Shown here one piece after another: positions 12,914 through 59,255 of a DNA stretch of 64,000 bases. The notes under the pieces are model-generated. The model did not search any database, was not told where the DNA came from, and saw only the letters and a list, made by a program, of their open reading frames with translations. Each line of letters starts with the position of its first letter. Position 1 is the stretch's first letter. A program made the position numbers and the translations under genes. The stretch comes from Microlunatus soli (GTDB taxonomy: Bacteria > Actinomycetota > Actinomycetes > Propionibacteriales > Propionibacteriaceae): the NCBI RefSeq assembly GCF_900105385.1, contig NZ_LT629772.1, positions 1,178,001-1,242,000 on the forward strand. The letters run 5' to 3'.

Positions 12914-13037
12914 GCAACACCACTCCCATCGACCGGCACGCAGGGATCGGAGGTCACCCCGAGCCGAATTGGTCTCACTCTAATACCTTTTCGTCTTCGG
13001 GCGCCAGGAATGATCGTTACGGCGCTGCTACGGCTCA

Positions 13038-13043
13038 TAGACT
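13038..13043 (+). promoter_or_regulatory. Candidate -10 (TAGACT) for a leaderless FadR-type gene
   Basis: TAGACT ends 6 nt before the ATG at 13050. There is no ribosome site, so transcription probably starts at the start codon. Confidence 0.55.
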
Positions 13044-13049
13044 CCCGCC

Positions 13050-13847
13050 ATGCCCGCCGGCCCTGATGATCAGATCGCGACCGACGACCGAACTGCCGTC
13101 GGCCACCACGCAACGGTCTCACGGACGAAGTCGACCTCGCTAGCCGACCGGCTCGTGACGGCGATCGCTATCGCGACCTACTCCCCCGGTGAACGGCTCC
13201 CGCCCGAGCGGGAACTGGCCCTGTCGTTGGGCGTCAGTCGGGTGACCTTGCGCGAGGCGCTGCGGCAGGTGGCCGACCTCGGCCTGATCGAGAGCCGGCG
13301 CGGACGGGGTGGCGGCACCTTCGTCGCGACCACCGCCTGGGAGGACGTCGCCCCCGAGGTTGCTCGCCGCACCCTGGAGGTGGAGATCCCTCGGTTGCTC
13401 GACCTGTTCGACTATCGCTGCCTGGTGGAGGGCATGATCGCGCGAGCCGCGGCCGAACGCCGTACCGCCGACGACATCACCAAGATCAGGAGTGCGTTGG
13501 AGGAGTTCCGGCACGCCGCCGGCATGATCGACGCCCGATCGGCGGACCGCCGATTGCACGGACTGATCTGTGCTGCGGCCCGCAACCCTCATCTGACCTC
13601 ACTGAGTGCCAGGCTGACCGCTGAGGCAACGCTGGGTTTCGGGGCAGAACCGTACGATCCGGAGTTCCTCACCGCCGCCCTCGAACAACACACCGACCTC
13701 GTCGGTCATGTCATCCGCGGCGAGGCCGACGCCGCCGGCCGCGCGGCGCAGGCCCACTTCACCCTCACCCTGGAGACGATGCGCGCCGGGCTCCGCCGTG
13801 CCTCGGAGCGGGTCGCCCCGCCGAGTCCTCCCTCCCCAATCCGCTGA
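13050..13847 (+). CDS. GntR-family (FadR subfamily) transcriptional regulator
   Basis: A 265-residue regulator with an N-terminal winged helix (PGERLPPERELALSLGVSRVTLREALRQV, residues 46-74) followed by ESRRGRGGGTFV and an all-helical FCD ligand domain (RLLDLFDYRCLVEGMIARAAAER to LEQHTDLVGHVIRGEADAA). It is divergent from the aminopeptidase-permease-acetamidase operon and is its likely regulator. The last codons (…PSPIR stop) lie inside a 65-bp hairpin repeat: the element's first bases CCGCTGA give the terminal Arg and the stop. Confidence 0.9.
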   Translation: MPAGPDDQIATDDRTAVGHHATVSRTKSTSLADRLVTAIAIATYSPGERLPPERELALSLGVSRVTLREALRQVADLGLIESRRGRGGGTFVATTAWEDVAPEVARRTLEVEIPRLLDLFDYRCLVEGMIARAAAERRTADDITKIRSALEEFRHAAGMIDARSADRRLHGLICAAARNPHLTSLSARLTAEATLGFGAEPYDPEFLTAALEQHTDLVGHVIRGEADAAGRAAQAHFTLTLETMRAGLRRASERVAPPSPPSPIR

Positions 13848-13905
13848 CCCGTCAGTTTCTCCCCGACACGCGCGGCGTGTCGGGGAGAAACTGACGGGTC
13901 AGCGG
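13841..13905. terminator. 65-bp perfect hairpin, stop-codon-embedded repeat copy 1
   Basis: Two 30-bp arms (13841-13870 and 13876-13905) are exact reverse complements around a CGCGG loop. The left arm starts CCGCTGACCCGTCAG and so contains the GntR stop codon. No U-tract follows, as is usual for terminators in GC-rich actinobacteria. It lies between convergent genes (GntR and LacI), so it could stop both. Copies 2 and 3 are at 21926 and 59191. Confidence 0.85.
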
Positions 13906-13924
13906 ATGTGTGGGGGCGGGTGCC

Positions 13925-14959
13925 TCAGAGCGCGGGACCCGAACTCTCCCGAACGATCAGGGACGGTTCCAACATGATCTTGGTCCCGGACGCCGCGATC
14001 TCACCGGCGGCCACCTCGGACAACAATTCGGTGAGCGTTCTGCGGCCGAGTTCGTAGAAGTCGTAGTGCACGGTGGTCAACGACGGTGTCAGGAACGCCG
14101 ATTCGGCGATGTCGTCGAAGCCGACCACGCTCACCTGGTCGGGCACGGCGATCCCGAGCTCGCTCAGCGCCCGCAGCGCACCGATCGCCATCAGGTCGTT
14201 CGCCACGAACAGCGCGGTCGCCTCGCCGCCGGCGGCTGCAGCCCGGGCCAGCTCGTAACCCGACTCCGGCGACCAGTCGCCGACCGAGACGCCCAGCGGC
14301 TCGAGACCGGCCGCCGCCAGAGTGGCTTCCCAGCCCTGCCGGCGTTCCAGGGCCTCCAGCCGGTCTTCGGGTCCCCCGATGTGATGCATCGCGGTGTGTC
14401 CGAGGTCGATCAGATGCTGGGTGGCCAGCTCCGCACCGCGGACCTGGTCGACGGCCACTACCGGGGTCCGACCACGGATCCCTTCCATCGCGACCATCGG
14501 CGTGTCCATGGCCGTTACCATCGAGTCGTCGAGCCCGCTGTGCGGAGCGTTGACCACGATGCCGGCGACTGCCTGACTCTGCAGATAGTCCACGGCATCC
14601 GCGATCGACTCCGGTGTGAGTTCGGGCAGGATCGACATCGTCACCGCGTACCCGAGGGCGCGCGCGTCTTGCTCGATGCCGGCCAGCGCAGAGGTCGGCC
14701 CGTCGACGGCTCCTTCCATGGTGATCACACCGATACTGCGCGCCCGGCCGCTGCTCAGGGTCTTGGCCGCCAGGTTGGGGCGGTAGTTCAGCGTCGTGGC
14801 GGCCGTCACCACCCGCGCCCGGGTCTCCTTGCTGACCGCGCCGCTGCTGTTGAGCACTCGGGACACGGTCATCGTGGAGACACCGGCCAGCCGCGCGACA
14901 TCGTCGAGGCTCACCGACTGGGGTGATCTCGGTCGGGGTTTGCGGATACGGTCGGTCAC
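13925..14959 (-). CDS. LacI-family transcriptional regulator
   Basis: A 344-residue LacI-type repressor: helix-turn-helix and hinge at SLDDVARLAGVSTMTVSRVLNSSGAVSKETRARVV (residues 16-50), then the periplasmic-binding-protein-like sugar domain with ARSIGVITMEGAVD and late EVSVVGFDD-like (VSVVGFDDIAES) segments. It is the last gene of the glycosidase/ABC operon on the minus strand and most likely binds the paired TTAGCGCTAA operators at 21844-21875. The start is GTG at 14959, 25 bp after the GH2 stop. Confidence 0.92.
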   Translation of the reverse strand: MTDRIRKPRPRSPQSVSLDDVARLAGVSTMTVSRVLNSSGAVSKETRARVVTAATTLNYRPNLAAKTLSSGRARSIGVITMEGAVDGPTSALAGIEQDARALGYAVTMSILPELTPESIADAVDYLQSQAVAGIVVNAPHSGLDDSMVTAMDTPMVAMEGIRGRTPVVAVDQVRGAELATQHLIDLGHTAMHHIGGPEDRLEALERRQGWEATLAAAGLEPLGVSVGDWSPESGYELARAAAAGGEATALFVANDLMAIGALRALSELGIAVPDQVSVVGFDDIAESAFLTPSLTTVHYDFYELGRRTLTELLSEVAAGEIAASGTKIMLEPSLIVRESSGPAL

Positions 14960-14984
14960 AGGTCAGTCATCTCCCGAGCGCAGC

Positions 14985-17060
14985 CTAATGGTCGACTCGG
15001 CCGACGGCCCGGACGACGTCGACGACGGTGTGCGCGCGGACCTGATCCGACTCGTCGACGAGCCACAGCCGCAGCCGTGCGGTGCTCGAACCGGTGGGCA
15101 TCGTCGACCGCACCATCGTCGGATCGGACACCCGGTAGGGATCGACGACGACGTCGACCTTCTGCTCGGCCGCGGTGTCAGCTCCGTTCCCAGGCTGCGA
15201 CCAGGCCGCCGCCAGCGTCCCGCGGATCCTCGATCGTCCGTGGTGCGACAGCCGGACCGGAACGGTGACCTCACCGTTGGTGCTGATCACGTCGATGCCC
15301 GGCGCGATCGGGTCGAGATCGGTGATGATCACGGTCTCGGCATGGACGTCGGAGGAGGTCAGACCGAGATCGTCCTTGACCGACCGGTCGAAGGTCAGCA
15401 CCCCGGCGAACTCGTGCTCGACGTCGTACAACTCGGTGTAGACGTAGCCGTTGTTGTCGGCCTGCCGGCGTAGCTCCTGGGTCTGCCACCGCATCGCCCA
15501 GGCGCGATCGACCGCGGTCCGACCAGTGCCGTACTCGCTGTTGATCACGGGCAGTCCGCGGGCATCCCCCCGGTCGGCCATCAGGTACTTGCGTTCCACG
15601 TGACTGCCGAGATCGACATCGAAGCCAGGCGCGGCTCCGGTGTACAGGTCAGAGATCGCGTTCCGCCAGTCCGTCGGGGAGTCGGAGTAGACGTGCCAGT
15701 CGGCCAGATCGGTGGCGACGTGTGACCAGCCGGAGCAATCCACCACCGGACGGGAGTCGTCCAGTTCCTTGATCAACCGGTATCCGTCGGCGAGCACTCG
15801 CTGCTTGACCGGGTTGTCGACCACATCCCAGTCCAGACCCCACTCCTCGTTGTACAGCCCCCAGATCACAATGCACGGATGGTTACCGTCCCGCGCGACC
15901 ATCGGCGCGATCTGATCGGCGAAGGCGACAGTAGCTGGGGAGCTGTAGCGGCTCGTGCTGGCCGGCTCCTCCCACACCAGCATCCCGATCCGGTCGGCAT
16001 GATGCAGCCAGCGCGGGTCCTCCAGCTTGAGGTGTTTGCGGACCAGGTTGAAGCCGAGCCGTCTGGCATGATCAAGATCGGCGGTCAACGCGGCACCGTC
16101 CGGCGCCGTCCAACCGTACCTGGGCCAATACCCCTGGTCCAGCACGCCGCGGAGGAAGATCCTTTCTCCGTTGAGGAAGAGATGTCGCCCGCGGGTCTCG
16201 ATGGTCCGGATGCCGGTCGTCACGATCACCCGGTCGATCACCTGGTCACCGTCGCGGACCTCGACGGCGATCTCGTAGAGATGGGGGTCGGCCGGCGACC
16301 ACGGGCGCGGCTCATCGACCGCAACAGCCAGGGTCGTGAGCTTGTCGAAGGACCGGAACTCCTTCGAGGATCCGGCCTTACGTGGGCCGCGGGTTTCCAG
16401 CCCTTCGACCAGCTCAGGGCTCGGGTCGTCGAGCACGTCCACGGCGATGGTCGACGCGGGATCCGGTTCGGGTCCCGCCACCCGGATGGTCGCGTCCCAA
16501 CCGTCCAATGTGCTGCGCGGACGCAGTTCGACGGCAGCCAGATGACGTTCCGGACGGAGCTCCCACCAGACGCTCTGCCAGATCCCGCTGCACGGGCTGA
16601 ATGAGCAACTGTCGTAGGGATCCAGCGGGATCGATCGCTGCTTGCCGTGCGGGATGGCGCCCTTGTCCCGCGGGTTGCGGACCCGGACACACAGCTCGAT
16701 CCGGTCACCGGCGAACTCGGTGAGATCGACTTCGAACGGGACCTGGCCGCCGGTGTGCCGGTGCTGTCGGAGGCCGTCGACGAAGATCGTGGTCTCGTGC
16801 TGGACGGCACCGAAGTGCACGATCAGCCGGTGCCCGTCCGCCGGCGTCGGAGCCGTCCAGCGCAACCGGTACCAGCCGACCTCGAGCCAGCGGGCTGCGA
16901 CTCCGGATGCCTCGGTGTCCCAGCCGTACGGGACCATGATCATCTCCGGCCAGCACGTCGGCGGCGTCGTCTCGGCGCTGCGGGCGAACTCCCAGCTGCC
17001 GTCGAGCAGTCCCCACTCGGTGTCGCGACGGAAGTCCGGGCGCGGATAGTCGTCAGTCAC
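14985..17060 (-). CDS. Glycoside hydrolase family 2 enzyme
   Basis: A 691-residue GH2 protein with the usual order: N-terminal jelly-roll (LDGSWEFARS to LIVHFGAVQHETTIFVDG), an immunoglobulin-like domain, then a TIM barrel with acid/base Glu in WGLYNEEWG and nucleophile Glu in INSEYG. There is no signal peptide, so it acts inside the cell on imported sugar. Beta-galactosidase, beta-glucuronidase or arabinosidase activity are all possible; context with GH51 favours a plant-derived oligosaccharide. The GTG start overlaps the GH51 stop as GTGA. An insertion of repeat origin (SPELVEGLETRG… to SFDKL) interrupts the immunoglobulin-like domain. Confidence 0.9.
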   Translation of the reverse strand: MTDDYPRPDFRRDTEWGLLDGSWEFARSAETTPPTCWPEMIMVPYGWDTEASGVAARWLEVGWYRLRWTAPTPADGHRLIVHFGAVQHETTIFVDGLRQHRHTGGQVPFEVDLTEFAGDRIELCVRVRNPRDKGAIPHGKQRSIPLDPYDSCSFSPCSGIWQSVWWELRPERHLAAVELRPRSTLDGWDATIRVAGPEPDPASTIAVDVLDDPSPELVEGLETRGPRKAGSSKEFRSFDKLTTLAVAVDEPRPWSPADPHLYEIAVEVRDGDQVIDRVIVTTGIRTIETRGRHLFLNGERIFLRGVLDQGYWPRYGWTAPDGAALTADLDHARRLGFNLVRKHLKLEDPRWLHHADRIGMLVWEEPASTSRYSSPATVAFADQIAPMVARDGNHPCIVIWGLYNEEWGLDWDVVDNPVKQRVLADGYRLIKELDDSRPVVDCSGWSHVATDLADWHVYSDSPTDWRNAISDLYTGAAPGFDVDLGSHVERKYLMADRGDARGLPVINSEYGTGRTAVDRAWAMRWQTQELRRQADNNGYVYTELYDVEHEFAGVLTFDRSVKDDLGLTSSDVHAETVIITDLDPIAPGIDVISTNGEVTVPVRLSHHGRSRIRGTLAAAWSQPGNGADTAAEQKVDVVVDPYRVSDPTMVRSTMPTGSSTARLRLWLVDESDQVRAHTVVDVVRAVGRVDH
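16338..16415. repeat. Inverted-repeat element inserted in frame in the GH2 gene
   Basis: GAGCTTGTCGAAGG (16338-16351) and CCTTCGACCAGCTC (16402-16415) are inverted repeats with one mismatch. The frame stays open and gives the peptides SPELVEG and SFDKLTT, which I recognise as translated forms of short palindromic repeats common in high-GC genomes. It resembles the GACAGGCTCA elements at 4106, 54585 and 60550. Confidence 0.75.
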
Positions 17061-18577
17061 GATCGATCCTCCCAGCCACGATCATCACGGGTGGCGATCA
17101 CCGACCAGCTGCGGGCGGGCAGAGTTGCCATCACTGCGCCGTCGGCAGCGACGGCGTCGAGGCTGCCTGGCCCGGCCGTCTCCGGGTCGCCGGCGGCGAG
17201 CCGCTGAGGTGTGGCGATGACCGTTCGGGCTTCCATGATCAATTGGTCGGGTCGGTCGACGACGCCGATCTCGACCGGCAGCGGCTCGCCGGTCCGGTTC
17301 ACCAGGAAGATCGCGTTCTGATCGCCTTCCCGGCATGCGGCCACCGCCAACCCCGGAACGTCACCATGCTGGGGACTGCTGAGCGTCGGCCCGTCGACGC
17401 TACTCACCAGAGAACATCCCCGTGCCAGCCGGGCGGTCTGCGCCAGCGGATGGAAGATCGTCTGCCGGAGCACCGATCCGTCGGCTCGGGTCAGGATCGG
17501 CGCGCTGACGTTGACCAGCAGCGACAGACAGGCCACCCGTACCCGGTCGGAATGGTTCAGCAGGCTGATCAACAGATCGCCGACCACGACCGCGTCCAGC
17601 GTCTGGTAGCGATCCTCGCCGAGCGGCGGTCGGACCGCGATCTCGTCGTCGCGTCGGGTCGCCGTGTCGTCCGGCGTCGTCGTCCAGACGTTCCACTCGT
17701 CGAAGGCGATCGCCAACCTCTTGCTCGATCGGTGCCGCGCGACCACCGCATCGGCGGTCGCGGTGAGTTCCTCGATGTAGCGGCTCATCACCTCTCCCGA
17801 AGCCAGGTAGTCGGCGTCGGACTGGCGACCGTCGTAGTAGGCGTGGATCGACAGATAGTCCACCAGATCATGGGTGTGTTCCAGGACCGTCTGCTCCCAC
17901 TGTCCGTAGCTCGCCATCTCCCGGTTCGAACTTCCGCAGACGGTCAGCTCGATCGACGGATCCACCATTCGCATCGCCCGGCCGGCCGCGGCCGCTCGGC
18001 GGCCGTACTCCTCGGCGGTGGTGTGTCCGATCTGCCACGGCCCGTCCATCTCGTTGCCCAGGCACCACAACCCGACGTCGTACGGGTCCGCCCGGCCGTG
18101 TTTGCGGCGCAGGTCGGCATACCGGGTCGGCGACGTGGCGTTGCAGTACTCCACCAGGGCGGCCGCCTCGGCCGCCCCACGGGTACCGAGATTGACCGCC
18201 ATCATCGGCGTCAGCCGCCGGCCCTCGGCCCACTGCAGGAACTCGTCGGTGCCGACCTGGTTGGTCTCCACCGACCGCCACGCCAGGTCGAGGGTCGTCG
18301 GGCGGAGCTCGCGCGGCCCGACGCCGTCCTCCCAGCGATACCCGGAGACGAAGTTGCCGCCCGGGTAGCGGACCAGACCGATCCCGAGTTCGCCGATCAG
18401 CTCTGCGACGTCCTCGCGGAACCCTGACTGATCGGCCCGCGGATGATCGGGCTGGTAGATCCCGCCGTACACACAGCGACCCATGTGCTCGACGAACGAT
18501 CCGAACAGTCGCCGGTCGATCGTGCCGCGGTCGAACTCGGTGCACAAGCGGATCCGGGCAGCAGGGGGTGGTGGCAC
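17057..18577 (-). CDS. Alpha-L-arabinofuranosidase, GH51
   Basis: A 506-residue cytoplasmic GH51 enzyme that releases terminal arabinofuranose from arabino-oligosaccharides. The N-terminal RRLFGSFVEHMGRCVYGGIY, the acid/base Glu in WCLGNEMDGPW and the nucleophile Glu in IAFDEWNVW are diagnostic. The open frame extends far upstream as a shadow of the permease gene; the true start is GTG at 18577 with GACGAGGAG 8 nt before it. It sits 26 bp after the ABC permease and overlaps the GH2 start by GTGA, so the whole set is one operon. Confidence 0.93.
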   Translation of the reverse strand: MPPPPAARIRLCTEFDRGTIDRRLFGSFVEHMGRCVYGGIYQPDHPRADQSGFREDVAELIGELGIGLVRYPGGNFVSGYRWEDGVGPRELRPTTLDLAWRSVETNQVGTDEFLQWAEGRRLTPMMAVNLGTRGAAEAAALVEYCNATSPTRYADLRRKHGRADPYDVGLWCLGNEMDGPWQIGHTTAEEYGRRAAAAGRAMRMVDPSIELTVCGSSNREMASYGQWEQTVLEHTHDLVDYLSIHAYYDGRQSDADYLASGEVMSRYIEELTATADAVVARHRSSKRLAIAFDEWNVWTTTPDDTATRRDDEIAVRPPLGEDRYQTLDAVVVGDLLISLLNHSDRVRVACLSLLVNVSAPILTRADGSVLRQTIFHPLAQTARLARGCSLVSSVDGPTLSSPQHGDVPGLAVAACREGDQNAIFLVNRTGEPLPVEIGVVDRPDQLIMEARTVIATPQRLAAGDPETAGPGSLDAVAADGAVMATLPARSWSVIATRDDRGWEDRS

Positions 18578-18603
18578 GTCAGGACTCCTCGTCGGTCGGA
18601 TGG

Positions 18604-19494
18604 TCAACGGGCACTTCCGGCCAGCAGGCCGGCAATGAAGTGCCGCTGCAGCAGGATGAAGATGATCACGGTCGGGATGGTGGCGAAGGCGCTCGCGGCC
18701 ATCAGCTGGCCCCAGAGGTCGGCGCTGCTGACCGACATCTGCGAGCCGCTGACGTTGGTGGCCAAGCCGGCGAGCAGCACGGCGAGCGTCTGTTTCTGCT
18801 CGGAGTTGATGGCGACGATCGGCCACACCAGATCGTTGTAGATGTTGAACAGGCTGAGCACCGCCAAGGCCGCCAACCCGGGCCGGATGACGGGCACGAT
18901 CACCGCGTAGAAGGTGCGCAGTACACCGGCACCGTCGATCTTCGCCGCATCGATCAGCTCGTCGGGGACGTCGCTGATCACCTGCCGCATCCAGAACACG
19001 CTGAACGCGTCGATCGCTCCGGGCAGGATCAGCGCCTTGAACGAATTCACCCAGCCGAGCTCCCCCATCTGCACCAACAACGGGATGATCAACACCAGAG
19101 TCGGCAACATCAGGGTCATCATCACGAAGGCGAACAGCTGTCGCTTGAACGGGAAGTCGAACTTGGCGAATCCGTACCCGGCGAGCGGGCAGAAGATCAT
19201 CGTGATCGCCCCCTTGATGGCCACCACGACTGTGGTGTTGCCGAGCGCTCTGATGATCGGGACGTTGGACAGCATCCCCTCCCAGTTGCGCAGGGTGAAG
19301 TCGCGCGGGTCGAAGCCGAGCGGATCGTTCAGAATGCTCGCGCCGGGGCGCAGCGAGTTGACGATCATCCACCAGAGCGGGAAGCAGAAGGCCAGACAGA
19401 CCGCCACGATCACCAGCGCGGCGGCCGTCCGGCGGAGCGCGATGCCCAGCGGGTGTCGGCGCGGTCCGGCGAAGGACGAGACAGTTGCGACCAT
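18604..19494 (-). CDS. Carbohydrate ABC transporter permease, MalG-type
   Basis: A 296-residue inner-membrane permease with six predicted helices and the EAA motif DELIDAAKIDGAGVLRTFYAVIVPVIRPG that contacts the ATPase. It pairs with the MalF-type permease directly upstream (stop TGA at 19497, ATG at 19494, preceded by GGAGGA inside that gene's end). I took ATG 19494 as the start, since the frame further upstream is only a shadow of the partner gene. No ATP-binding subunit lies in the operon, so a shared MsiK-type ATPase elsewhere probably drives it. Confidence 0.92.
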   Translation of the reverse strand: MVATVSSFAGPRRHPLGIALRRTAAALVIVAVCLAFCFPLWWMIVNSLRPGASILNDPLGFDPRDFTLRNWEGMLSNVPIIRALGNTTVVVAIKGAITMIFCPLAGYGFAKFDFPFKRQLFAFVMMTLMLPTLVLIIPLLVQMGELGWVNSFKALILPGAIDAFSVFWMRQVISDVPDELIDAAKIDGAGVLRTFYAVIVPVIRPGLAALAVLSLFNIYNDLVWPIVAINSEQKQTLAVLLAGLATNVSGSQMSVSSADLWGQLMAASAFATIPTVIIFILLQRHFIAGLLAGSAR

Positions 19495-19496
19495 GA

Positions 19497-20429
19497 TCAG
19501 TCCTCCGCTCTGAGTAGTCGGACCGAGATCAGCGACAGCAGCAGCACCAAGATCACCAACAGGAAGGAGTTGGCGGCGCCGGTGCCGAGATCGGAGGCAC
19601 CGATGTGGTTGTACAGATAGAGACCTGAGGTCTGCGAACTCGTGTACGGGCCACCCTTGGTGAGCACGTACGGCTCGACGAACATCTGCGAGATACCAAG
19701 CGTCGATACCACGACGAAGAACGCCGTCGCCCGACGCACCAGCGGCACCGTGATGGAGAAGAAGGTCCGGAACGGCCCGGCGCCGTCGATCGCCGACGCC
19801 TCGTACACTTCTCGCGGGATCTGTTGTACCGCAGCCAGCATCACGATCAGCGCGAAGCCGCTGCTCTTCCAGAGCACGAACAGAGCGATCGTCGGTTTGG
19901 ACCAGAAGATCGTCGTCAGCCAGCCGATCTTCGGCAGGCCGATCGCCGACAGGATGAAGTTGGTGACACCGAAGTTGGTGTCGAAGAGCAGGATGAAGGC
20001 CTGCGCCATCGCCGCCACCGGAGTCACGTACGGCAGGATCGTCACCGTCCGCAGCACCTTCGCATACCACCGACCGGATCGGGTCAGCGCTGCGGCGACC
20101 GCGATCGCGACGACCGTCTGGACCGGGACCACCAGCAACCACATCACGCCTGAGTTGAGCAGCGACCCCCAGAAGTCGACGTTGCCGAGCAGGTAGCGGT
20201 AGTTGTCCAGCCCGATCCAGTGCAGCGTGCCCGAGCCGTGCCAATCGGTGAAGCTCAGCTGGAGCGCGAAGATCAACGGATAGCCGCCGAAGGCGGCGAA
20301 CAGGAGGAAGAAGGGAAGCACCAACAGATAGCCGACCCACCACTGTCGCGGCAATCGTCGACGTCGCGGCGGCTCACTTGCGTGATCACCGTCCGGCAAC
20401 CCTGTCCTGGTCTGCTCGATCGTGCTCAT
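19497..20429 (-). CDS. Carbohydrate ABC transporter permease, MalF-type
   Basis: A 310-residue permease; an Arg-rich cytoplasmic N-terminus (PPRRRRLPRQW) is followed by six helices and the EAA loop REVYEASAIDGAGPFRTFFSITVPLVRR. The ATG at 20429 overlaps the stop of the solute-binding protein gene as ATGA. Family, gene order (binding protein, MalF, MalG, glycosidases) and the LacI operators indicate import of an oligosaccharide, probably arabinose-containing given GH51. Confidence 0.92.
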   Translation of the reverse strand: MSTIEQTRTGLPDGDHASEPPRRRRLPRQWWVGYLLVLPFFLLFAAFGGYPLIFALQLSFTDWHGSGTLHWIGLDNYRYLLGNVDFWGSLLNSGVMWLLVVPVQTVVAIAVAAALTRSGRWYAKVLRTVTILPYVTPVAAMAQAFILLFDTNFGVTNFILSAIGLPKIGWLTTIFWSKPTIALFVLWKSSGFALIVMLAAVQQIPREVYEASAIDGAGPFRTFFSITVPLVRRATAFFVVVSTLGISQMFVEPYVLTKGGPYTSSQTSGLYLYNHIGASDLGTGAANSFLLVILVLLLSLISVRLLRAED

Positions 20430-21811
20430 CGTTGCCGATCGACGAGGTTCTTCTGGATCTGGTCCGAAGACTTGGAGATCACGTCGTCCACGCTCATCGA
20501 TCCGTCGATCATCTTCTGCATGTTGACGCCGAGGTAGTTCGCTGCCTGGTTGAACCACGGCGGGATGCGGTAACCGGCAGGAATCGCCAGCGCAGCCTTG
20601 GTGTCCACCGACCACAGGTCCTGATTGCCCAGTTGCTCGACGGGCTTGAAGAGTGCGGGTCCGTTCAGTGCTGCCTTGACCGAAGGCAGCGAGGTGTTCA
20701 ACCCGTTCGGGTAGGTCTTGTTCGGCCCGTACACGGTGCTGTAGCCCTTCTTGTTGTAGAGGGCGAACTCGTAGAACAACCAGGCCAGCTCCGGGTTCTT
20801 CGCCTTCAGCGGGATCACGAACGAGCTACCGCCCATCACCCCGGACCGCGCGCCGCCCTCGGTCCAGGCCGGCAACTCGGCGACCCGCCACTTGCCGACG
20901 GAGGTCTTGAGCCCGGACTGTGGCAGGAAGATGAACCAGATCGCCCACGGCACCAGGGAGATCGTGCCGTTGTCGAGCATCGCGATGTTGCTCGTGCTGG
21001 CGAACTTCGTCCGGGCACCGAGCCCCTGTTCGGCGACCTGCCGGATCCAGGTGAGGGCGTTGCGGAACGCAGGTGTGTCGATGGTGAGGTTGTCCTGCTT
21101 GTCGATCAGCCCGCTGCCCTGCTGCTGGTTGATCAACATCATCAGCCACTGCAGGCCGAGGTTGGCGTCCTGCTCCAGCGGGATGGGCTTGGCCTTGGCG
21201 TTCTTGGACTTGATCTTGTCCGCGGCGTCCAGCAGCGCGTCGTAGCTGATCAGCGTCGCCGGGTCGACACCGGCCTTGTCCAGGATGTCGGTGCGGTAGT
21301 ACAGCAGTCCCGGATCGGTGTCCCAGGGGATCCCGACCAACTTGTTGTCGAAGGTGTTGACGTCCAGCTTGAACTGCACCGTGTCAGCACGATGCGGTTT
21401 CATCAGGGACGTCAGGTCATAGAGGTGATCGGCCTGCGCGCCGATGTTGACGTCCTCGTAGAAGGAACCGTCCGGCACCGCAGTGCCACTGATCAAGGTC
21501 GGCGGCAGCTTGGTGTCGATGTCCAGACCGACCATCTTCACCGAGACGTCGGGATACACCTTGTTGAACGCCGGCACGACCGTGCGGAATACCTTGAGCA
21601 GGTCGTCGTCGCGCATCCACAAGGTGATCGAGCCCTTGGCCGTCGCACTGGGCTTGGGCGCCAACTTCTGCTCCGGCTGCGACGACCCCGGCATGCAGGC
21701 CGCCAGGCCGGAGCCGGCGAGACCCGCACCACCCAGCAGCGCCGCCGCCCGGAGCGCGGATCGTCGGTCGAAGCGGGCAGTCGACGACTGCATCGGGTCT
21801 GTCCTGGTCAT
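20426..21811 (-). CDS. Extracellular sugar-binding lipoprotein of the ABC transporter
   Basis: A 461-residue family 1 solute-binding protein. The N-terminus has paired arginines (DRRSALRAAALLGGAG) and a lipobox LAAC, so it is exported, perhaps by Tat, and lipid-anchored outside the membrane. TAKGSITLWMRDDDLLKVF begins the mature binding fold. It is the first gene of the sugar operon, with CAGGAGGTCAACG before the ATG at 21811 and two LacI operators 33-64 bp upstream of the ATG. Confidence 0.93.
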   Translation of the reverse strand: MTRTDPMQSSTARFDRRSALRAAALLGGAGLAGSGLAACMPGSSQPEQKLAPKPSATAKGSITLWMRDDDLLKVFRTVVPAFNKVYPDVSVKMVGLDIDTKLPPTLISGTAVPDGSFYEDVNIGAQADHLYDLTSLMKPHRADTVQFKLDVNTFDNKLVGIPWDTDPGLLYYRTDILDKAGVDPATLISYDALLDAADKIKSKNAKAKPIPLEQDANLGLQWLMMLINQQQGSGLIDKQDNLTIDTPAFRNALTWIRQVAEQGLGARTKFASTSNIAMLDNGTISLVPWAIWFIFLPQSGLKTSVGKWRVAELPAWTEGGARSGVMGGSSFVIPLKAKNPELAWLFYEFALYNKKGYSTVYGPNKTYPNGLNTSLPSVKAALNGPALFKPVEQLGNQDLWSVDTKAALAIPAGYRIPPWFNQAANYLGVNMQKMIDGSMSVDDVISKSSDQIQKNLVDRQR

Positions 21812-21843
21812 CGTTGACCTCCTGGTGCCGAGATCGCGCGAAT

Positions 21844-21855
21844 GTTAGCGCTAAC
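21844..21855. promoter_or_regulatory. LacI-family operator, proximal copy
   Basis: Perfect 12-bp palindrome GTTAGCGCTAAC, 33 bp upstream of the binding-protein ATG. An identical copy lies 20 bp further out. A central CG and this length are typical of LacI-family sites; the likely ligand is the LacI protein encoded at the end of the operon. Confidence 0.9.
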
Positions 21856-21863
21856 TATCAGGT

Positions 21864-21875
21864 GTTAGCGCTAAC
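21864..21875. promoter_or_regulatory. LacI-family operator, distal copy
   Basis: Second perfect GTTAGCGCTAAC, exactly two helical turns (20 bp) from the first. On the minus strand a GATAGT that could be a -10 lies between the two copies, so bound repressor would cover the promoter. Confidence 0.9.
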
Positions 21876-21925
21876 AGTATGCCTCCGCTCAGAGCTTGGC
21901 AAGGGGACGAAGGTCCCGGCCAAAT

Positions 21926-21990
21926 CCGCCGACCCGTCAGTTTCTCCCCGACACGCGCGGAATGTCGGGGAGAAACTGACGGGTCAGCGG
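21926..21990. terminator. 65-bp hairpin, stop-codon-embedded repeat copy 2
   Basis: Arms 21926-21953 and 21963-21990 pair with a single mismatch. Read on the minus strand it starts CCGCTGACCCGTCAG and supplies the last Arg codon and stop of metI (tca at 21984-21986). It separates metI from the promoter region of the sugar operon, both on the minus strand, and so insulates the latter. Confidence 0.85.
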
Positions 21991-22646
21991 TGGAGGACGC
22001 GGCGGGCCAGGACGTTGCCCAGGAGTTGAGCGCCTTGGACGATCACGATGATGATCACCACGGTGAGCAGTGTGACGGCCCAGTTGAGCTGCTGGTAGCC
22101 ATAGGTGATGGCGAAGTCGCCGAGCCCGCCGCCACCGATGTAACCGGCCATCGCGGACATGTCGACGATCCCGATGAACATGAAGGTGTAACCCAGGATC
22201 AACGGGGCCAGCGCCTCCGGGACCACCACGGTGAGCAGGATGCGGAGCCGACCCGCCCCCATCGAACGAGCGGCCTCGACCACGCCGGGATCGACGGCGA
22301 CCAGATTCTGCTCAACGATCCGACCGATGGCGACCGCGGCCATCACCGACATCGGGAAGATCGCCGCCTTGGTGCCGATCGTGGTCCCGACGGCGAGCAT
22401 CGTCAGCGGGCCGATCGCGGTGATGAAGATGATGAACGGGATCGGCCGGATCAGGTTGACCAACACGTTCAGGATGTTGAAGATGATCTTGTTCTGCGCC
22501 AGATTGCCCGGTCGGGTCGCATACAGCGCGGTGCCGATGATCAGCCCGCCGATGCCTCCGGCGAACAAGGTGATCACGACCATCAGCACGGTCTGCCGGA
22601 ACGCGATCCCGAGCTGTGGGAGCAGAGCTGAGATGTCCACGATCAC
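21984..22646 (-). CDS. metI: Methionine ABC transporter permease
   Basis: A 220-residue MetI-type permease with about five helices and the EAA-like segment VVEAARSMGAGRLRILLTVVVPEALAP. The GTG at 22646 overlaps the metN stop as GTGTGA and has GGGGGAG just upstream; a second GTG two codons later is possible. It forms the membrane channel of the MetNIQ importer for D/L-methionine. The stop codon lies in a 65-bp hairpin repeat. Confidence 0.92.
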   Translation of the reverse strand: MIVDISALLPQLGIAFRQTVLMVVITLFAGGIGGLIIGTALYATRPGNLAQNKIIFNILNVLVNLIRPIPFIIFITAIGPLTMLAVGTTIGTKAAIFPMSVMAAVAIGRIVEQNLVAVDPGVVEAARSMGAGRLRILLTVVVPEALAPLILGYTFMFIGIVDMSAMAGYIGGGGLGDFAITYGYQQLNWAVTLLTVVIIIVIVQGAQLLGNVLARRVLHR

Positions 22647-23665
22647 ACTCCCCCTTCCGGCCACTCGGTGACCTCGGTGATCTCTGCGAGCGAGGCGATC
22701 GTCGATCGGATCGCGTCGGGTTCACCGGTCAGTTCGAAGGTCAGTGACCCGAACGGCCGGTCACCGATCTCGGAGATGCCGCCGTAGATCACCGCGCTGT
22801 GTACGCGCTGATCCCGGAGTCGGTCGAAGATCGCGGTCCGCTGGTCAACCAGCTCGACAGTGATGATCGTCCCGGCATGATCGCCGCGCAGCCGTGAGAT
22901 CACGTCCGCGTCCGGACGATCATGCAACACCGTCTGGACGAACCGCCGGGTCGCGGTCGACTGCGGACGAGCGAAGACGTCGAAGACCGGCCCCCGTTCC
23001 ACGATCCGTCCCTGCTCCATCACCACCACCCGATCACAGATCGAGCGGACCACCTCCATCTCGTGAGTGACCACCACGACGGTGGTCCCGAGATCGCGAT
23101 TGACCCGGCGCAACAGCGCCAGCACGTCGGCTGTCGTCTCCGGATCGAGCGCACTGGTGGCCTCGTCGGCCAACAGCAGCTTGGGACCGGTGGCCAGCGC
23201 CCGGGCGATCCCGACTCGCTGCTTCTGGCCACCGGACAGCTGGTTCGGGTAGGCCGACGCCCGATCCGCGAGACCGACGAAGTCCAACATCTCCGCCACC
23301 CGGGCCGCACGTTCGGCCCGACCGAGACCGGCCAGCTTCAACGGGTAGGCAACATTGCCGGCGACGGTCCGGGAGGCGAACAGGTTGAACTGCTGGAAGA
23401 TCATCCCGACCTCGCTGCGCACCCGGCCCAGCTCCCGCTCGGTCAAGCGACCAAGATCAACGCCGTCCAGCAGCACCCGGCCGCTGGATGGGCGTTCCAG
23501 GGCGTTGATCAAGCGCACCAAGGTCGACTTGCCGGCCCCGGAATAGCCGATCACTCCGGTGATCTCGCCAGCGTTGATGTCCAGATCGACATCATCGACC
23601 GCACGGACCACCGACGGCCGGCGGAACTCCTTGCTGACGCCGACCAGGCTCACCAGGGCGGCCAT
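22643..23665 (-). CDS. metN: Methionine ABC transporter ATP-binding protein
   Basis: A 340-residue ATPase: Walker A GYSGAGKST (near residue 40), Q-loop FQQFNLF, signature LSGGQKQR (near residue 143), Walker B LLLADEAT, switch His in VVTHEM. The C-terminal NIL domain (about residues 265-338) is the regulatory methionine-binding domain that inhibits transport when methionine is plentiful. The ATG shares one base with the metQ stop (TGATG). Confidence 0.95.
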   Translation of the reverse strand: MAALVSLVGVSKEFRRPSVVRAVDDVDLDINAGEITGVIGYSGAGKSTLVRLINALERPSSGRVLLDGVDLGRLTERELGRVRSEVGMIFQQFNLFASRTVAGNVAYPLKLAGLGRAERAARVAEMLDFVGLADRASAYPNQLSGGQKQRVGIARALATGPKLLLADEATSALDPETTADVLALLRRVNRDLGTTVVVVTHEMEVVRSICDRVVVMEQGRIVERGPVFDVFARPQSTATRRFVQTVLHDRPDADVISRLRGDHAGTIITVELVDQRTAIFDRLRDQRVHSAVIYGGISEIGDRPFGSLTFELTGEPDAIRSTIASLAEITEVTEWPEGGV

Positions 23666-25257: not shown

Positions 25258-26229
25258 GTGGCAGCAACCGGTTGGTATCCCGATCCCGGAGGAGCGACGG
25301 GGCGTTACCGCTATTGGGATGGCAGCAGGTGGTCCGCTGAGACCACCGATGATCCGACCGCCCCACCGCCGACCGCGTCCTACGGCTCGGCGACGGCTTC
25401 CTCGACGGGTCCGACGGACCCCTCGAGCCGGCCCTCCGCACTCGTTGGGCAGCGGCAGAAGAGCCGCACCGGCATCGTGGTCGGCGCCCTGGTGGTGCTG
25501 GTGGTGTTGATCTTGGCCGTGGTGTTCACCGTCCGAGCGGTGACCGATCGGCGCGACCGGGTGCTGATGGATCCGGATCCACCACAGTCCAGTGTCAGCG
25601 GCTGGGACGACTCGAGCCCGCTGCCGACCGAGACACCGACCCCGACGCAGAGCGCCGAGCCGTCCGACAGCGCCAGTCCACAGGGCCTGGAGTCCTGCCC
25701 GGACGGTGATCCGAGCCGTCGCCAGAACCATCCGGCCGACGACAAACGCACCTATGGCGGTGACCTGTCGTTTCCCAAACCGGCGGGCTATGACGACAAC
25801 GCCGCCTACACCCATTCGATGACCTGGGCCTACGACACCGACGGTGTCTACACCAGCACCGAGCCGGCCTGGGCGTCGTTGCTGGCGGTCGGCTACATCA
25901 CGTCGGCCGACGGCTTCAAGACCACCAAGCAGAGCGCCGACGGCATGATGCAGTGCATCGCTTCGTCGGGCTACTACAGCCAATTCACCGGCCGCAAGGA
26001 CGTGTTCTCCAAGAAGGTCACCGTCGACGGCCATCCAGGCTGGGCACTGCGATCAGAGATCCGAGTGGACAATCCCGACCTGAGCGTCGAAGGCGACGTC
26101 GCCGAGGTGATCGTGGTGGACACCGGTACGGCCGGACAGCTGTCCTTCTTCGGTGGCTTCGTGCCGATCGGCGACCAGCCGCGGATCCGGACGCTGGACG
26201 ACACCATCGCCGGCCTGCAGGTCGGCTGA
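25258..26229 (+). CDS. DUF2510 membrane-anchored protein, array member 1
   Basis: A 323-residue protein: cytoplasmic DUF2510 ([18 protein letters not shown], residues 5-22), a Pro/Ser/Thr linker, one membrane helix (about 71-95, positive residues before it, so N-in/C-out), a second Thr/Pro-rich linker opening with [11 protein letters not shown], and an external domain of about 180 residues. The external domain has two Cys (147 and 233) present in all five paralogues, probably a disulphide, and the motif [18 protein letters not shown] at 25258 has GAGGAG 11 nt upstream; a -10-like TAGGGT lies at 25195. Function unknown. Confidence 0.85.
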
Positions 26230-26232
26230 ACG

Positions 26233-27153
26233 ATGGCAGCGGCGGGCTGGTATCCCGACCCGGACGGCACCCCGGGACGCTTCCGTTACTGGGACGGCAA
26301 CCAGTGGTCCGCGGCGACGAGCAACACTCCCCAGGCGCCGCCGCCGGGCCCCACCGGGCCATCGGCGCAGCGCCGACAGCGCGGCAGGGCCGGCCTGCTG
26401 ATCGGTGGATTGGCGGTGCTGATCGTCGGGGCGATCGTGGCCGCGCTGATCGTGCGCGCCCTCGATGATCATCACGACACCGTGCTCGACGACCCTGATC
26501 CACCGCCATCGACGGCCAGCGGCTGGGACGACTCCAGTCCGCTGCCGACCGCCACTCCCACACCGACACCGTCGAAGAGCGCGCGGTCTCCGAGCCCGCG
26601 CAGCAATCCGAAGGTGGCCTGCGCGGTCGGTGCTCCGACCGAGCGGGCGAAGCACCCCGACAACGGCCGGGTGTACGGCGGTGAGTTGTCGATGCCGTCG
26701 CCGGACAGCAGTTGGAATCACACCAACCGGGACGCCATCGGATTGTCCTTCGCCTACGATGTCGGCCTGGTCGACAAGATCGTCGAGGCGAATTGGTACG
26801 AGTCCATCGCGGTCGGTGAGGTCCGCACCGAGGATGGATTCACCGGCCCCGAACAGGCGGCCGAGGCGATCACCCAGTGCATCGCGTCGTCGACCTTCTA
26901 TCGTGGTTTCCAGGGACGGCACGACGTCTACAGCAAGCGGCACGATGTCGACGGCGAGCCGGGCTGGGCGGTGCGCACCGAGATCCGGGTGGACGATGCC
27001 GGCGACGACCTCGAAGGTGATGTCTCCGAGGCGATCGTGGTGGACACCGGTGAGCAGGGCACACTGTCCTTCTTCTGGGGTTGCGTGCCGATCGACGACA
27101 CCGCCCGACTCGAACAACTGGAGGCCGTGATGCACGACCTCCGTGTCTCCTGA
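26233..27153 (+). CDS. DUF2510 membrane-anchored protein, array member 2
   Basis: A 306-residue paralogue of the preceding gene, starting only 3 bp after its stop. Order: DUF2510 (GWYPDPDGTPGRFRYWDG), membrane helix (LLIGGLAVLIVGAIVAALIV, about residues 55-74), [15 protein letters not shown] linker, external domain with the conserved Cys pair (NPKVACAVGAP and ITQCIASS), the HPDNGRVYGGELS motif, and the end signature LSFFWGCVPIDD, which adds an extra Cys not seen in the others. It is very likely co-transcribed with member 1. Function unknown. Confidence 0.85.
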   Translation: MAAAGWYPDPDGTPGRFRYWDGNQWSAATSNTPQAPPPGPTGPSAQRRQRGRAGLLIGGLAVLIVGAIVAALIVRALDDHHDTVLDDPDPPPSTASGWDDSSPLPTATPTPTPSKSARSPSPRSNPKVACAVGAPTERAKHPDNGRVYGGELSMPSPDSSWNHTNRDAIGLSFAYDVGLVDKIVEANWYESIAVGEVRTEDGFTGPEQAAEAITQCIASSTFYRGFQGRHDVYSKRHDVDGEPGWAVRTEIRVDDAGDDLEGDVSEAIVVDTGEQGTLSFFWGCVPIDDTARLEQLEAVMHDLRVS

Positions 27154-27166
27154 GGGGCGAATCGAC

Positions 27167-28108
27167 GTGGCAGCGACGGGCTGGTATCCCGATCCGGACG
27201 GCACGCCGGGACGCTATCGCTACTGGGACGGCCGCCAGTGGTCGGCCGAGACGACCGACAACCCGAGCATCGGCAGCCCGACCGGTGGCGGTCCGATCGG
27301 CAGCTCCTCCACCGCACAACCTGCGTCCGGCGCCGGCCGGCAGGCAGCGCGCCGCGGCCGGACCGGGCTGATCCTGGCCGCCCTCGCCGTTCTGCTGGTC
27401 GTCGTCGTGATCGCCACCCTGGTGATCCGTTCGCTGGGTGATCAACGTCCCGGCGCACTCGGCGATCCTGACCCGCCGGAATCCAGCGTCAGCGGTTGGG
27501 ACGACTCCAGTCCGTTGCCGACCGCGTCGCCGCCGCCGACCGGCGACAGCACGGGGCCGACCAGTGCCGTCGCCTGCGCGGCAGGTGCGCCGGGCAGTCG
27601 CAATCCGCACCCGTCCGACGGCCGGCTGCACGGCGGCCGACTGTCACTCGAACAGCCCGGCAGTCCGTGGCGACGCGACGACCGTTATGCCTCCGGACTC
27701 AGCTACGCCTACGACGTCAGCGGCGCCAGCGAACAGGTCGAGCCGAGCTGGTTCGCCATGGTCGCGGTCGGTGAACTCCACGCCGACGACGGTTTCCGCC
27801 GGCCGAAGCAGGCTGCCGACGGGGTGCTGCAGTGCATCGCCTCGTCGTTCTACTACGAGTACTTCACCGGCAGGAAGGATCTGTCCAGTAAGCGATTCGC
27901 CCTGGACGGCCATTCCGGCTGGTCGATCCGCAGCGAGATCCGTGTCGACGACCCCGCTGTGCAGGCCGCCGGCGACGTGGTCGAGGTGATCGTGCTGGAC
28001 ACCGGGGACGCCGACCGGCTGTCGCTGTTCGCCGGCTTCGTCCCGATCGGTGATGCCGCACGGATCTCCCAGCTGGATGAGGTGATCAGCGGGTTGCGGG
28101 TGGATTGA
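27167..28108 (+). CDS. DUF2510 membrane-anchored protein, array member 3
   Basis: A 313-residue paralogue. I start at GTG 27167, preceded by AGGGG at good spacing, since the homology begins with [21 protein letters not shown]. Membrane helix TGLILAALAVLLVVVVIATL, then [15 protein letters not shown], the Cys pair (AVACAAGAP, VLQCIASS), HPSDGRLHGGRLS, FTGRKDLSSK and IRSEIRVDDPA. It follows member 2 by 13 bp and completes a three-gene unit; an 80-bp gap separates member 4. Confidence 0.85.
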   Translation: MAATGWYPDPDGTPGRYRYWDGRQWSAETTDNPSIGSPTGGGPIGSSSTAQPASGAGRQAARRGRTGLILAALAVLLVVVVIATLVIRSLGDQRPGALGDPDPPESSVSGWDDSSPLPTASPPPTGDSTGPTSAVACAAGAPGSRNPHPSDGRLHGGRLSLEQPGSPWRRDDRYASGLSYAYDVSGASEQVEPSWFAMVAVGELHADDGFRRPKQAADGVLQCIASSFYYEYFTGRKDLSSKRFALDGHSGWSIRSEIRVDDPAVQAAGDVVEVIVLDTGDADRLSLFAGFVPIGDAARISQLDEVISGLRVD

Positions 28109-28188
28109 CAACCGCTCCGCACCCGTGCCGCGGCCGCCGCCGGGTTGGTGGCTTCGGTTAGGTTCTGAACTGAGGTGGAAGGAGGTCG

Positions 28189-29094
28189 ATGGCGTTGGCC
28201 GGCTGGTATCCGGACCCCGGTGGCAAACCCGGGAGATACCGCTACTGGGACGGTGAGTCCTGGTCGGAGGTGATGACCGACGACCCCGCCGACCCGCCGC
28301 CCGGCGCGGGGACCGGGCGGCGACCGACCCCCGATGCCGACCATCACCATCCGGGCCGGACGATCGGGATCGCCGTCCTGGTGCTCGTCATCGTCGTCGT
28401 CAGCGCGGTGCTGATCGTCCGCCGCACCGACAACGCGAGCAGCATCGGCGCCCCGGGAGCCGGCGCGAGCGGCTGGGACGACTCCAGTCCGCTGCCGTCG
28501 TCGCCGGCGGGCGGCTCGCCGTCGACATCGGGCTCGAGCGGCCCACCCCGTACGGCGGTGAACTGTCCGGCGGGGCGTCCCGACGAGCTGTCGTTGCACC
28601 CTAATGACGGCCGGATCCACGGCGGCCGGCTGTCGATGGCACCGATCGACGGTTACTCCGATCCCGAGCCGGAATACATGCTGAGCTGGATGTGGGACAC
28701 CGAAGGTGTCAGTCAAGTGACCGAACCGGGCTGGCAGTCGATCTTCGCGGTCGGCGAGATCCAGCGCTCCGACGGCTTCGACAGCCTGCGCGACGCCGCA
28801 CGGTCCTCCCTCGACTGTGCGAAGCGGACCGGCTGGTACCTGCATCTGGCCGGCTCCAAGAACATCCGCGACGAGGCGACCAAGGTCGACGGCCGCGACG
28901 CCTGGATCGTCACCGCCGAGATCCGCGACGACAGTCCGCGGGTCAGGGTGGACGGCGACCAGCTCACCTTCGTCGTGGTGGACGACGGCCGCGACGGTGC
29001 CTATTCGGTGTGGTGCGGGATGGTCCCGTTGGGCGACCGAACCCGCTTGGCCCTCAGCCAGCGGGTGTTGTCCGGTCTGAAGGTGCGCGGCTGA
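28189..29094 (+). CDS. DUF2510 membrane-anchored protein, array member 4
   Basis: A 301-residue paralogue with its own AAGGAGG ribosome site and, about 25 bp upstream, a TAGGTT that could be a -10. DUF2510 ([18 protein letters not shown]), helix (TIGIAVLVLVIVVVSAVLIV), [17 protein letters not shown], Cys pair (VNCPAGRP and SLDCAKRTG), HPNDGRIHGGRLSM. It is more diverged than members 1-3 in the second half (YLHLAGSKNIRDEATKVDG replaces the FTGRKD stretch). Function unknown. Confidence 0.84.
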   Translation: MALAGWYPDPGGKPGRYRYWDGESWSEVMTDDPADPPPGAGTGRRPTPDADHHHPGRTIGIAVLVLVIVVVSAVLIVRRTDNASSIGAPGAGASGWDDSSPLPSSPAGGSPSTSGSSGPPRTAVNCPAGRPDELSLHPNDGRIHGGRLSMAPIDGYSDPEPEYMLSWMWDTEGVSQVTEPGWQSIFAVGEIQRSDGFDSLRDAARSSLDCAKRTGWYLHLAGSKNIRDEATKVDGRDAWIVTAEIRDDSPRVRVDGDQLTFVVVDDGRDGAYSVWCGMVPLGDRTRLALSQRVLSGLKVRG

Positions 29095-29168
29095 CGACCG
29101 CCGACGGGTGGTGCCGCCCATGTTGCCGGTAGGCCGTGGTGATCATCGGACTCGACCGACCGATCGGG

Positions 29169-29174
29169 TAGCTT
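29169..29174 (+). promoter_or_regulatory. Candidate -10 (TAGCTT) for leaderless array member 5
   Basis: TAGCTT ends 7 nt before ATG 29182; no ribosome site precedes the ATG. Confidence 0.5.
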
Positions 29175-29181
29175 GGCCGCC

Positions 29182-54394: not shown

Positions 54395-54555
54395 GGCACC
54401 CAACGGGGATTTCGGCCCGGTGGTCGGGTTTCGGGTGTGGCGGGCGTTGCGTCGCGGCCGGTAGGACCAACAGCACCCAAGCACCCGAAGCGACCCGGCC
54501 GCGATGCTGGGCGGAAACCCGACCACCGGGCCGGAATCCCCAACCAGGCACCCAA
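54395..54555. mobile_element. 143-bp MITE-like element flanked by 9-bp direct repeats
   Basis: Left arm 54405-54432 (GGGGATTTCGGCCCGGTGG…) and right arm 54514-54541 are inverted repeats of 28 bp with one mismatch. The element (54404-54546) is bordered by GGCACCCAA at 54395-54403 and 54547-54555, which looks like a target-site duplication. It has no transposase frame. Confidence 0.75.
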
Positions 54556-59197: not shown

Positions 59198-59255
59198 CCC
59201 GTCAGTTTCTCCCCGAAACGCCGGGCGTGTCGGGGAGAAACTGACGGGTCGGCGG
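59191..59255. terminator. 65-bp hairpin, stop-codon-embedded repeat copy 3
   Basis: Arms 59191-59220 and 59226-59255 pair with two mismatches around a CCGGG loop. The left arm begins CCGCTGACCCGTCAG and contains the DUF1003 stop codon (59195-59197). It lies between genes on the same strand and would end transcription before the leaderless mrp promoter. Confidence 0.85.

Follow-up and report, generated by a model that had tools for sequence, protein, structure and literature searches.

A repeated hairpin behind genes of Microlunatus soli, a probable member of a family of 3'-end hairpins in actinobacteria

The window analysed here, a stretch of 64,000 nucleotides from Microlunatus soli, contains three copies of an inverted repeat of 65 nt each, at 13841–13905 (plus strand), 21926–21990 (minus strand) and 59191–59255 (plus strand), which is where the initial annotation had placed them; their arms, previously given as about 30 bp, measured about 28–30 bp. 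Copy 1, of the symmetric type described below, is situated 3' of a gene for a GntR-family regulator with an FCD domain (13155–13847, plus strand; PF00392, PF07729; longest ORF from 13050), whose TGA stop (13845–13847) lies within the first arm. It is preceded by a C/A-rich leader (13821–13840, plus strand) encoding a P/S-rich tail, and a convergent ORF, by eye of a LacI-type regulator (13925–14959), has its stop 19 nt past the far side; an identical 65-nt core is present at position 2026753 of the same genome. Copy 2 follows a gene for an inner-membrane component of an ABC transporter (21984–22664, minus strand; PF00528, BPD_transp_1; considered MetI-like in the initial annotation), with the TGA stop (21984–21986, minus strand) in the arm. 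Copy 3 follows the gene of a DUF1003 protein (58652–59197, plus strand; PF06210; the gene caller prefers a start at 58748), whose TGA stop (59195–59197) is again within the first arm; 75 nt beyond the copy another called gene begins. In the sense of the neighbouring gene every copy begins with CCGCTGACCCGTCAG, and the ORFs end with ...SPIR*, ...VLHR* and ...TPSR*, CGC TGA being located within the arm in all three cases, as had been noted. Within the far arm, copy 1 has GGTCAGCGG where copies 2 and 3 have GGTCGGCGG; thus, the TGA is not invariant in the repeat. When 95 nt of each copy were folded as RNA and compared with 200 shuffles, z values of -13.5, -9.1 and -9.5 were obtained for copies 1, 2 and 3; every copy forms one long hairpin whose stability greatly exceeds that of shuffled sequence.

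An Rfam scan of the whole window gave no match above the gathering threshold at the hairpins, the sole match being a class A RNase P RNA (RF00010, 46157–46548, minus strand, 304.9 bits); with eight hairpin loci, likewise none was above gathering at a hairpin, and weak matches to miRNA families were all that was obtained there. Several other features of the window were recorded. The palindrome GTTAGCGCTAAC occurs twice, 20 bp apart (21844–21855 and 21864–21875), upstream of a gene at 20426–21811 (minus strand; by eye solute-binding-protein-like); the pair presumably resembles a LacI-type operator. At 25259–29275 there is a local paralogue array of five similar stretches, spaced by about 1 kb and each situated at a gene start, whose segments of the type WYPDP...RYWDG we take to be DUF2510-like. 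Inverted arms of 28 nt, 96% complementary and 81 nt apart (54405–54432 and 54514–54541), are by eye unrelated to the hairpin family.

Within the genome of M. soli (6.73 Mb, one contig) the family comprises at least 52 copies. A 75-nt query with a window copy produced at least 80 matches over the two strands, corresponding to at least 40 places; word search and BLAST of the fetched stretches gave 46 places, of which 45 were kept, the one at 1608998, inside a gene, being regarded as a chance match. The 45 copies were aligned (alignment A1) and used for a covariance model, R1, which together with a second covariance model added seven diverged copies, all of them read. With about 6,100 genes, as extrapolated from a sample, about 1% of the genes carry a copy. 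The stems co-vary: for the 45 copies a score of 0.149 was obtained, compared with 0.096 +/- 0.007 in shuffles, and changes in one arm are matched on the opposite arm, e.g., TTTCTCC/GGAGAAA to TTCCTCC/GGAGGAA or to TTTGTCC/GGACAAA. Two classes are present, a minor one with a polar loop and a larger one with the palindromic loop GACACGCC/GGCGTGTC, which is a near-perfect palindrome with the loop motif on both strands; mean pairwise identities in A1 are 0.85 for the six polar and 0.89 for the 39 other copies. The seven diverged copies are all polar, in the sense of a gene ending 5–22 nt upstream. Weak polarity was found in 16 of the 45 copies of A1, with a stop on the sense side only in three, on the opposite side only in four, on both sides in seven and on none in two; these copies thus do not favour the sense side.

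For the placement relative to genes, gene ends were taken from a gene caller based on codon usage, for which sequence of the same genome had served as training set, and the background was a 464-kb sample, consisting of the window and 20 stretches of 20 kb, in which intergenic bases in gaps of at least 70 nt were counted. According to their neighbour genes, 16 of the 45 copies are convergent, 26 codirectional and three divergent, whereas the shares of intergenic bases in the sample are 0.11, 0.54 and 0.35, respectively; the convergent excess and the divergent deficit each have p ~1e-5. In 24 of the 26 codirectional copies the upstream stop is nearer than the downstream start (p = 1e-5). Among these 24 is the copy at 2146855, which is 353 nt from the upstream stop and within another called ORF; the latter (L039 1799–2437) would read through the whole hairpin (L039 2355–2419) and end about 19 nt past it. 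A total of 59 gene ends face a copy: 12 of them, at 11 copies, stop at the TGA of the arm (position -7), 32 stop 0–20 nt ahead of the core and 13 stop 21–60 nt ahead, the remaining two being at -54 and 95. From this spread it follows that the tie is to gene ends and not to the reading frame. The link to gene ends, which the initial annotation had suggested, is thus borne out.

The 20-nt leader before the core is rich in C and poor in G (C 0.51 and G 0.16 in M. soli, 0.57 and 0.09 in the relative G009), while control gene ends have C and G contents of 0.30 and 0.33 ahead of the stop and of 0.36 and 0.31 past it; the 20 nt after the core are G-rich. Pairing of the flanks in register was slightly above shuffles in M. 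soli (offsets 1–10, z of 2.3 to 2.6) and not clearly above shuffles in relatives, so that the C-rich leader and the G-rich follower mostly reflect composition. An extended outer stem was considered and rejected, as the flank pairing barely exceeds that of shuffles in the genome of M. soli.

When 40 relatives, including M. soli, were searched with R1, at least ten matched; all counts with R1 and with the model R2 are lower bounds, since limited candidates were scored per genome. Three relatives of the same genus, designated G004, G016 and G009, possess at least 93 places, of which 88 were read (four of G004 and one of G016 were left out). Alignment A2 of polar forms contains 83 of these 88 places, six copies of M. 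soli and one of the genome G040. In the polar form a C-rich leader is followed by CCGCCGACCsGTCAC or a variant thereof, then by a stem specific to the species, a loop similar to GTTTTGGCGGCGTGT and the second half of the stem. Its foot is GCCGA...TCGGC, and the stem varies by species yet pairs. The loop, which is U-rich and then carries CGGCGUGU and a CG closure, reads in the same direction as the gene whose end lies directly upstream. Of five measures of co-variation, three are strong for the 90 polar sequences, e.g., a score of 0.201 compared with 0.083 +/- 0.005 in shuffles, and both sides changed in 176 cells against 69.7 in shuffles; the two other measures were not clearly above shuffles, since 363 of 500 shuffles reached the number of pairs changed on both sides and 46 of 500 that of pair types.

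Direction could be scored in 86 of the 88 polar copies. Of these, 46 have a stop at -20 to 25 nt solely on their sense side, three solely on the antisense side and eight on both, while 29 have none in this range; the median stop distance is 5 nt for 63 sense ends and 37 nt for 29 antisense ends. By neighbour genes, 32 copies are convergent, 25 are codirectional after the sense gene, 15 have only an antisense gene before them, 11 are divergent and three lie within a called gene; therefore, with 26 antisense-only or divergent copies and the three in genes, a third departs from the sense rule. Additional forms were observed in relatives: enlarged hairpins of about 115–138 nt (L079 of G007, 1501–1638; L085 and L297 of G012) have words of the loop motif in both arms, which enclose an additional hairpin, and G004 contains pairs of oppositely oriented hairpins separated by about 70 to 540 nt (L203, L200, L188). 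Rfam matches above gathering in relatives were an ALIL pseudoknot (L248, 1133–1261, 79.2 bits) and an msiK RNA (L217, 1628–1684, 58.4 bits).

The initial annotation had proposed that the repeat supplies the last codon and the stop of the gene it follows, in fixed fusion to the reading frame. This holds for a minority of copies. Among the 12 ends at -7, in which the leader is translated, often as a Pro/Thr/Ser-rich tail, nine have CGC TGA and thus a final Arg, two AGC TGA and one CCG TGA. The fusion is not fixed, since 47 of the 59 facing ends stop elsewhere and 53 of the 90 arms of the 45 copies have CGA in place of the TGA found in 37. Stops inside the element were also found in relatives, at -17/-18 and at -54. 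That such stops arise where a gene end happens to overlap the edge of the element is proposed here. A stop codon from a repeat at gene ends has precedent, GTAG REPs being said to "often provide" one in the accessible part of PMC3733652.

Orthologues without the hairpin bear directly on the terminal Arg. For the MetI-type permease, three of 20 genomes of the genus, M. soli included, had a match at the cut-off; the hairpin-less orthologue of G009 (90% identical) ends with ...NVLARRVLHR* and CGC TGA, i.e., the same stop, and that of G006 (86%) with ...NVLAKKVLHR* and CGA TAG. Both end at the same Arg; hence the stop of the permease gene is not supplied by the repeat. The DUF1003 gene is present in all 20 genomes of the genus, and among those read the hairpin follows it in M. 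soli alone; CGC TGA is found in seven of the 19 orthologues lacking it, and the C-termini vary (the end in G007 was misread past its own stop). Orthologues without the element thus do end in the Arg-stop, an outcome which the initial annotation had named as speaking against its proposal. In 80 relatives of a genome collection the tail of DUF1003 is variable, and no hairpin of the family was found behind the gene. Other long hairpins of quite different sequence are situated behind DUF1003 elsewhere (L116 of Actinopolymorpha alba, L128/L279, L149), one of them with CTTCGACAGGCTCAG, which suggests other repeated hairpins at gene ends. Of the DUF501 genes, found in 19 of 20 genomes of the genus, only those of G004 and G009 are followed by such a hairpin; 17, including that of M. 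soli, lack it and have other tails. In G009 the frame of DUF501 enters the arm, which encodes the last residues PPTGH and the TAA.

The codon TAA is enriched shortly before hairpins: among the loci retrieved from G004, G009 and G016 it terminates 27 of 53 sense ends, compared with 22 of 326 other genes (Fisher p = 6e-14), and before copies of M. soli five of 57 versus 11 of 408 (p = 0.035). TAA may be brought along by the element or be preferred next to it: one pair of G004 and G009 shares the C-terminus RGLFGTARRRR, with TAA 3 nt before the hairpin in one and TGA 20 nt before it in the other. The enrichment, the 12 ends in the arm and the DUF501 of G009 would fit one of the explanations offered with the initial annotation, a stop-and-terminate cassette, with the repeat selected for a stop codon plus a terminator; the 47 ends elsewhere, the arms without TGA, the permease stop in genomes without hairpin and, by inspection, a consensus which gives stops in at most two frames speak against it, and we regard it as very improbable. 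As a general rule it is refuted by the stop positions and by the hairpin-less MetI and DUF1003 orthologues.

Short distances to the stop could also point to an effect on translation, in which a hairpin no more than about 15 nt from the stop would slow the terminating ribosome and lower the output of the upstream gene. Distances of -7 to 15 nt are found for 38 of the 59 gene ends in M. soli, relatives have a median of 5 nt on the sense side as given above, and the enrichment of TAA could reflect a need for quick release; furthermore, stalling of ribosomes is reported for E. coli REPs located within 15 nt of a stop (accessible part of PMC12306157, citing earlier work). The 13 gene ends at 21–60 nt do not agree with such a brake, which we consider rather unlikely. 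Annotation of the neighbouring proteins covers ten proteins only.

The repeat could also be a site at the DNA level, a cruciform or a protein-binding site, found behind genes because promoters exclude it. Each arm holds the imperfect dyad CGACnnGTCA (A1, A2), the flanks shift symmetrically from C-rich to G-rich, and the main class of M. soli is a near-perfect palindrome. The polarity of the loop relative to the gene in relatives of the same genus points to the transcript instead, and the pairing of the flanks past the core is weak; a site of this kind would appear to be quite unlikely.

With the model R2, which favours loops like its own, at least 26 of 245 genomes of the order matched at E <= 1e-4: seven of genus g1, 18 of family f3, which is presumably Nocardioidaceae-like, and one of f2. 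Other genera of the family to which M. soli belongs gave no match among those sampled. At the class level, with E <= 1e-5, matches were obtained in at least 11 of 296 genomes, and five of these genomes belong to other orders. The word GGCGTGT was found in the loop of five of 17 best hits of f3 which were read (G040, G067, G131, G193, G201); 11 of the 17 lack it and one, G129, has it elsewhere, and hairpins of G003, G006, G097 and G506 have loops without it. The feet recur widely; the loop is not universal. Four of the five genomes outside the order belong to one genus, g43, labelled as mycobacterium-like on the basis of one locus (best named match fadD4 of Mycobacterium branderi, 75.6%). In g43, 21 of the 28 places read (of 37 listed) have the GGCGTGT loop on a different stem (GCCGAGCAGACGCAAAAGCCCC...). 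Ten of these 21 hairpins are located between two close stops, and no polarity was visible among the 21 (three sense only, four antisense only, ten both, four neither). As background, the word CGGCGTGTCG occurs twice in 400 kb of stretches of M. soli without any of the 52 copies. Since selection by the model favours loops like its own, the shares of loops are biased, which does not affect the finding that some twenty such hairpins exist. The repeat is best regarded as belonging to a family of 3'-end hairpins in actinobacteria, which probably act as RNA.

Within one species the copies resemble each other, and stems are species-specific. Mean identities within species, based on 65-nt copies only, are 0.80 for G004 (42 of 50 copies) and 0.86 for G009 (15 of 18). 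Comparison of adjacent genes revealed one gene end with hairpins in both M. soli and G016 and two in both G004 and G009, in addition to DUF501. The three same-site pairs of G004 and G009 have identities of 0.75, 0.75 and 0.72, the general value between these species being 0.745; same-site pairs are thus no closer than random copies of the two species, and their identities are below both within-species means. With three pairs, this suggests that copies are homogenised or replaced, or that they co-evolve with a partner acting in trans. Either a trans-acting factor or a conversion process may keep the copies alike.

A DNA mechanism of spread should be considered here, i.e., a mobile palindrome similar to REPs or MITEs, tolerated mainly behind genes, with any effect on RNA being secondary. 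The number of dispersed copies in M. soli and the turnover of sites (a hairpin behind one of 20 DUF1003, two of 19 DUF501 and one of three MetI genes) would agree with it, as would the crowding of REPs within 20 bp of 3' ends, as described in the accessible part of PMC3733652. No Y1/RAYT transposase (PF01797) was found in the four genomes richest in copies, M. soli, G004, G009 and G016; two of 55 genomes matched, neither being one of these four. BLAST of the window copy gave no match on plasmid or phage records. The arm word TTTCTCCCCGACA, the one word searched genome-wide, is found in M. soli as pairs at short distance, within diverged copies and, at four places (213143, 1608999, 1702017, 4688159), by itself, and a long parent element around it is not apparent. 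Co-variation of stems and a sense polarity of 46 to 3 would also be unexpected for a purely selfish palindrome. A mobile palindrome is thus possible, if somewhat doubtful; a REP driven by RAYT is rejected on present evidence, because of the lack of a Y1 transposase in the four copy-rich genomes.

In our opinion the repeat is probably a hairpin of the RNA 3' end, a terminator or a 3'-end protector, which was dispersed and is homogenised in each species, and this is held with moderate confidence. The hairpin would be transcribed at the end of the message of the upstream gene and fold directly behind, or over, the stop codon; once folded, it could end transcription or shield the 3' end of the mRNA from exonucleases. 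This reading is supported by the placement behind genes, the co-variation of stems, the sense polarity in the genus and the breadth of occurrence. The polar form is presumably the older one; the main class of M. soli would then have become a near-perfect palindrome, and the window copies would be members of this younger, symmetric class. As its loop motif is on both strands, the symmetric class could serve genes on either side. Some observations do not fit easily. A plain terminator needs neither loop nor polarity, and the 29 of 86 polar copies mentioned above have no called stop at -20 to 25 nt on either side. The same applies to the loop, which many hits lack, to the missing sense preference in the weakly polar copies of M. 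soli and in g43, and to the low share of genes with a copy. U-tracts are scarce, a run of at least four T within 12 nt after the core being found at three of 90 arm ends in M. soli, and a simple terminator scan of window positions 13000–23000 found neither of the two copies there.

More tentatively, the hairpins could perhaps be parts of a wide actinobacterial 3'-end signal, i.e., a polar RNA hairpin whose loop, U-rich and followed by CGGCGUGU, would be read by a putative factor, a termination factor, RNase or RNA-binding protein being candidates. Stems would drift and become homogenised again in each species, while loop and orientation would be kept in lineages using the signal and lost in others; in M. 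soli the loop would have become palindromic and serve both converging genes. If true, this would be a loop-dependent definition of mRNA ends without U-tracts. Transcript ends of GC-rich actinobacteria are unsettled, and U-tracts are scarce there. The presence or absence of the hairpin at the same genes in related species provides natural pairs for tests of function, and the shared loop motif is a concrete bait for a partner protein. For annotation some caution is advisable, since Pro/Thr-rich C-terminal tails with a final Arg can be derived from the repeat.

Titles and abstracts of the open-licence papers searched contained no description of this hairpin family, which is weak evidence of absence, and several known systems share features with it. 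Inverted DNA-uptake sequences of competent Gram-negative bacteria form terminators, i.e., hairpins of short uptake words repeated behind genes; a repeated sequence with hairpins behind genes is present here as well. TRIT, a motif modelled by covariance in the RNIE study of Gardner et al. (2011, NAR), is reportedly a conserved structural motif at gene ends of M. tuberculosis. A symmetric form such as that of the window copies is, to our knowledge, not known for TRIT. Like TRIT, the family of the window is a conserved sequence-structure motif at actinobacterial gene ends; the mycobacterium-like hairpins share the loop with it, whereas the stems of the family in Propionibacteriales differ. Kinship to TRIT is possible. 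A TRIT model exists (accessible part of PMC3526491).

Intrinsic terminators of Streptomyces with few Us are long, very stable, co-varying hairpins behind genes of GC-rich actinobacteria, as is the case here, whereas a repeated family with a shared loop is not described in the accessible part of PMC12207403. Compared with a canonical intrinsic terminator, a GC-rich hairpin behind the stop is present and a U-tract after the stem is lacking. REPs of the GTAG and CGTC super-families, according to the accessible part of PMC3733652, are likewise dispersed palindromes, mostly in convergent or codirectional gaps and within about 20 bp of 3' ends, which sometimes supply a stop codon; their stems, however, are 5–13 bp and their total length 20–40 bp, compared with about 25–30 bp and 65 nt here. 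The hairpins also differ from REPs by their loop and the sense polarity in the genus, and by the lack of an unpaired GTAG/CGTC tag and of a Y1 transposase. The dispersed palindrome near 3' ends is thus shared with REPs; the short tagged stem and RAYT are not. Probably the hairpin works like a U-less terminator or like a REP, although a defining feature of either class is lacking, the U-tract for the former and the short tagged stem and RAYT for the latter.
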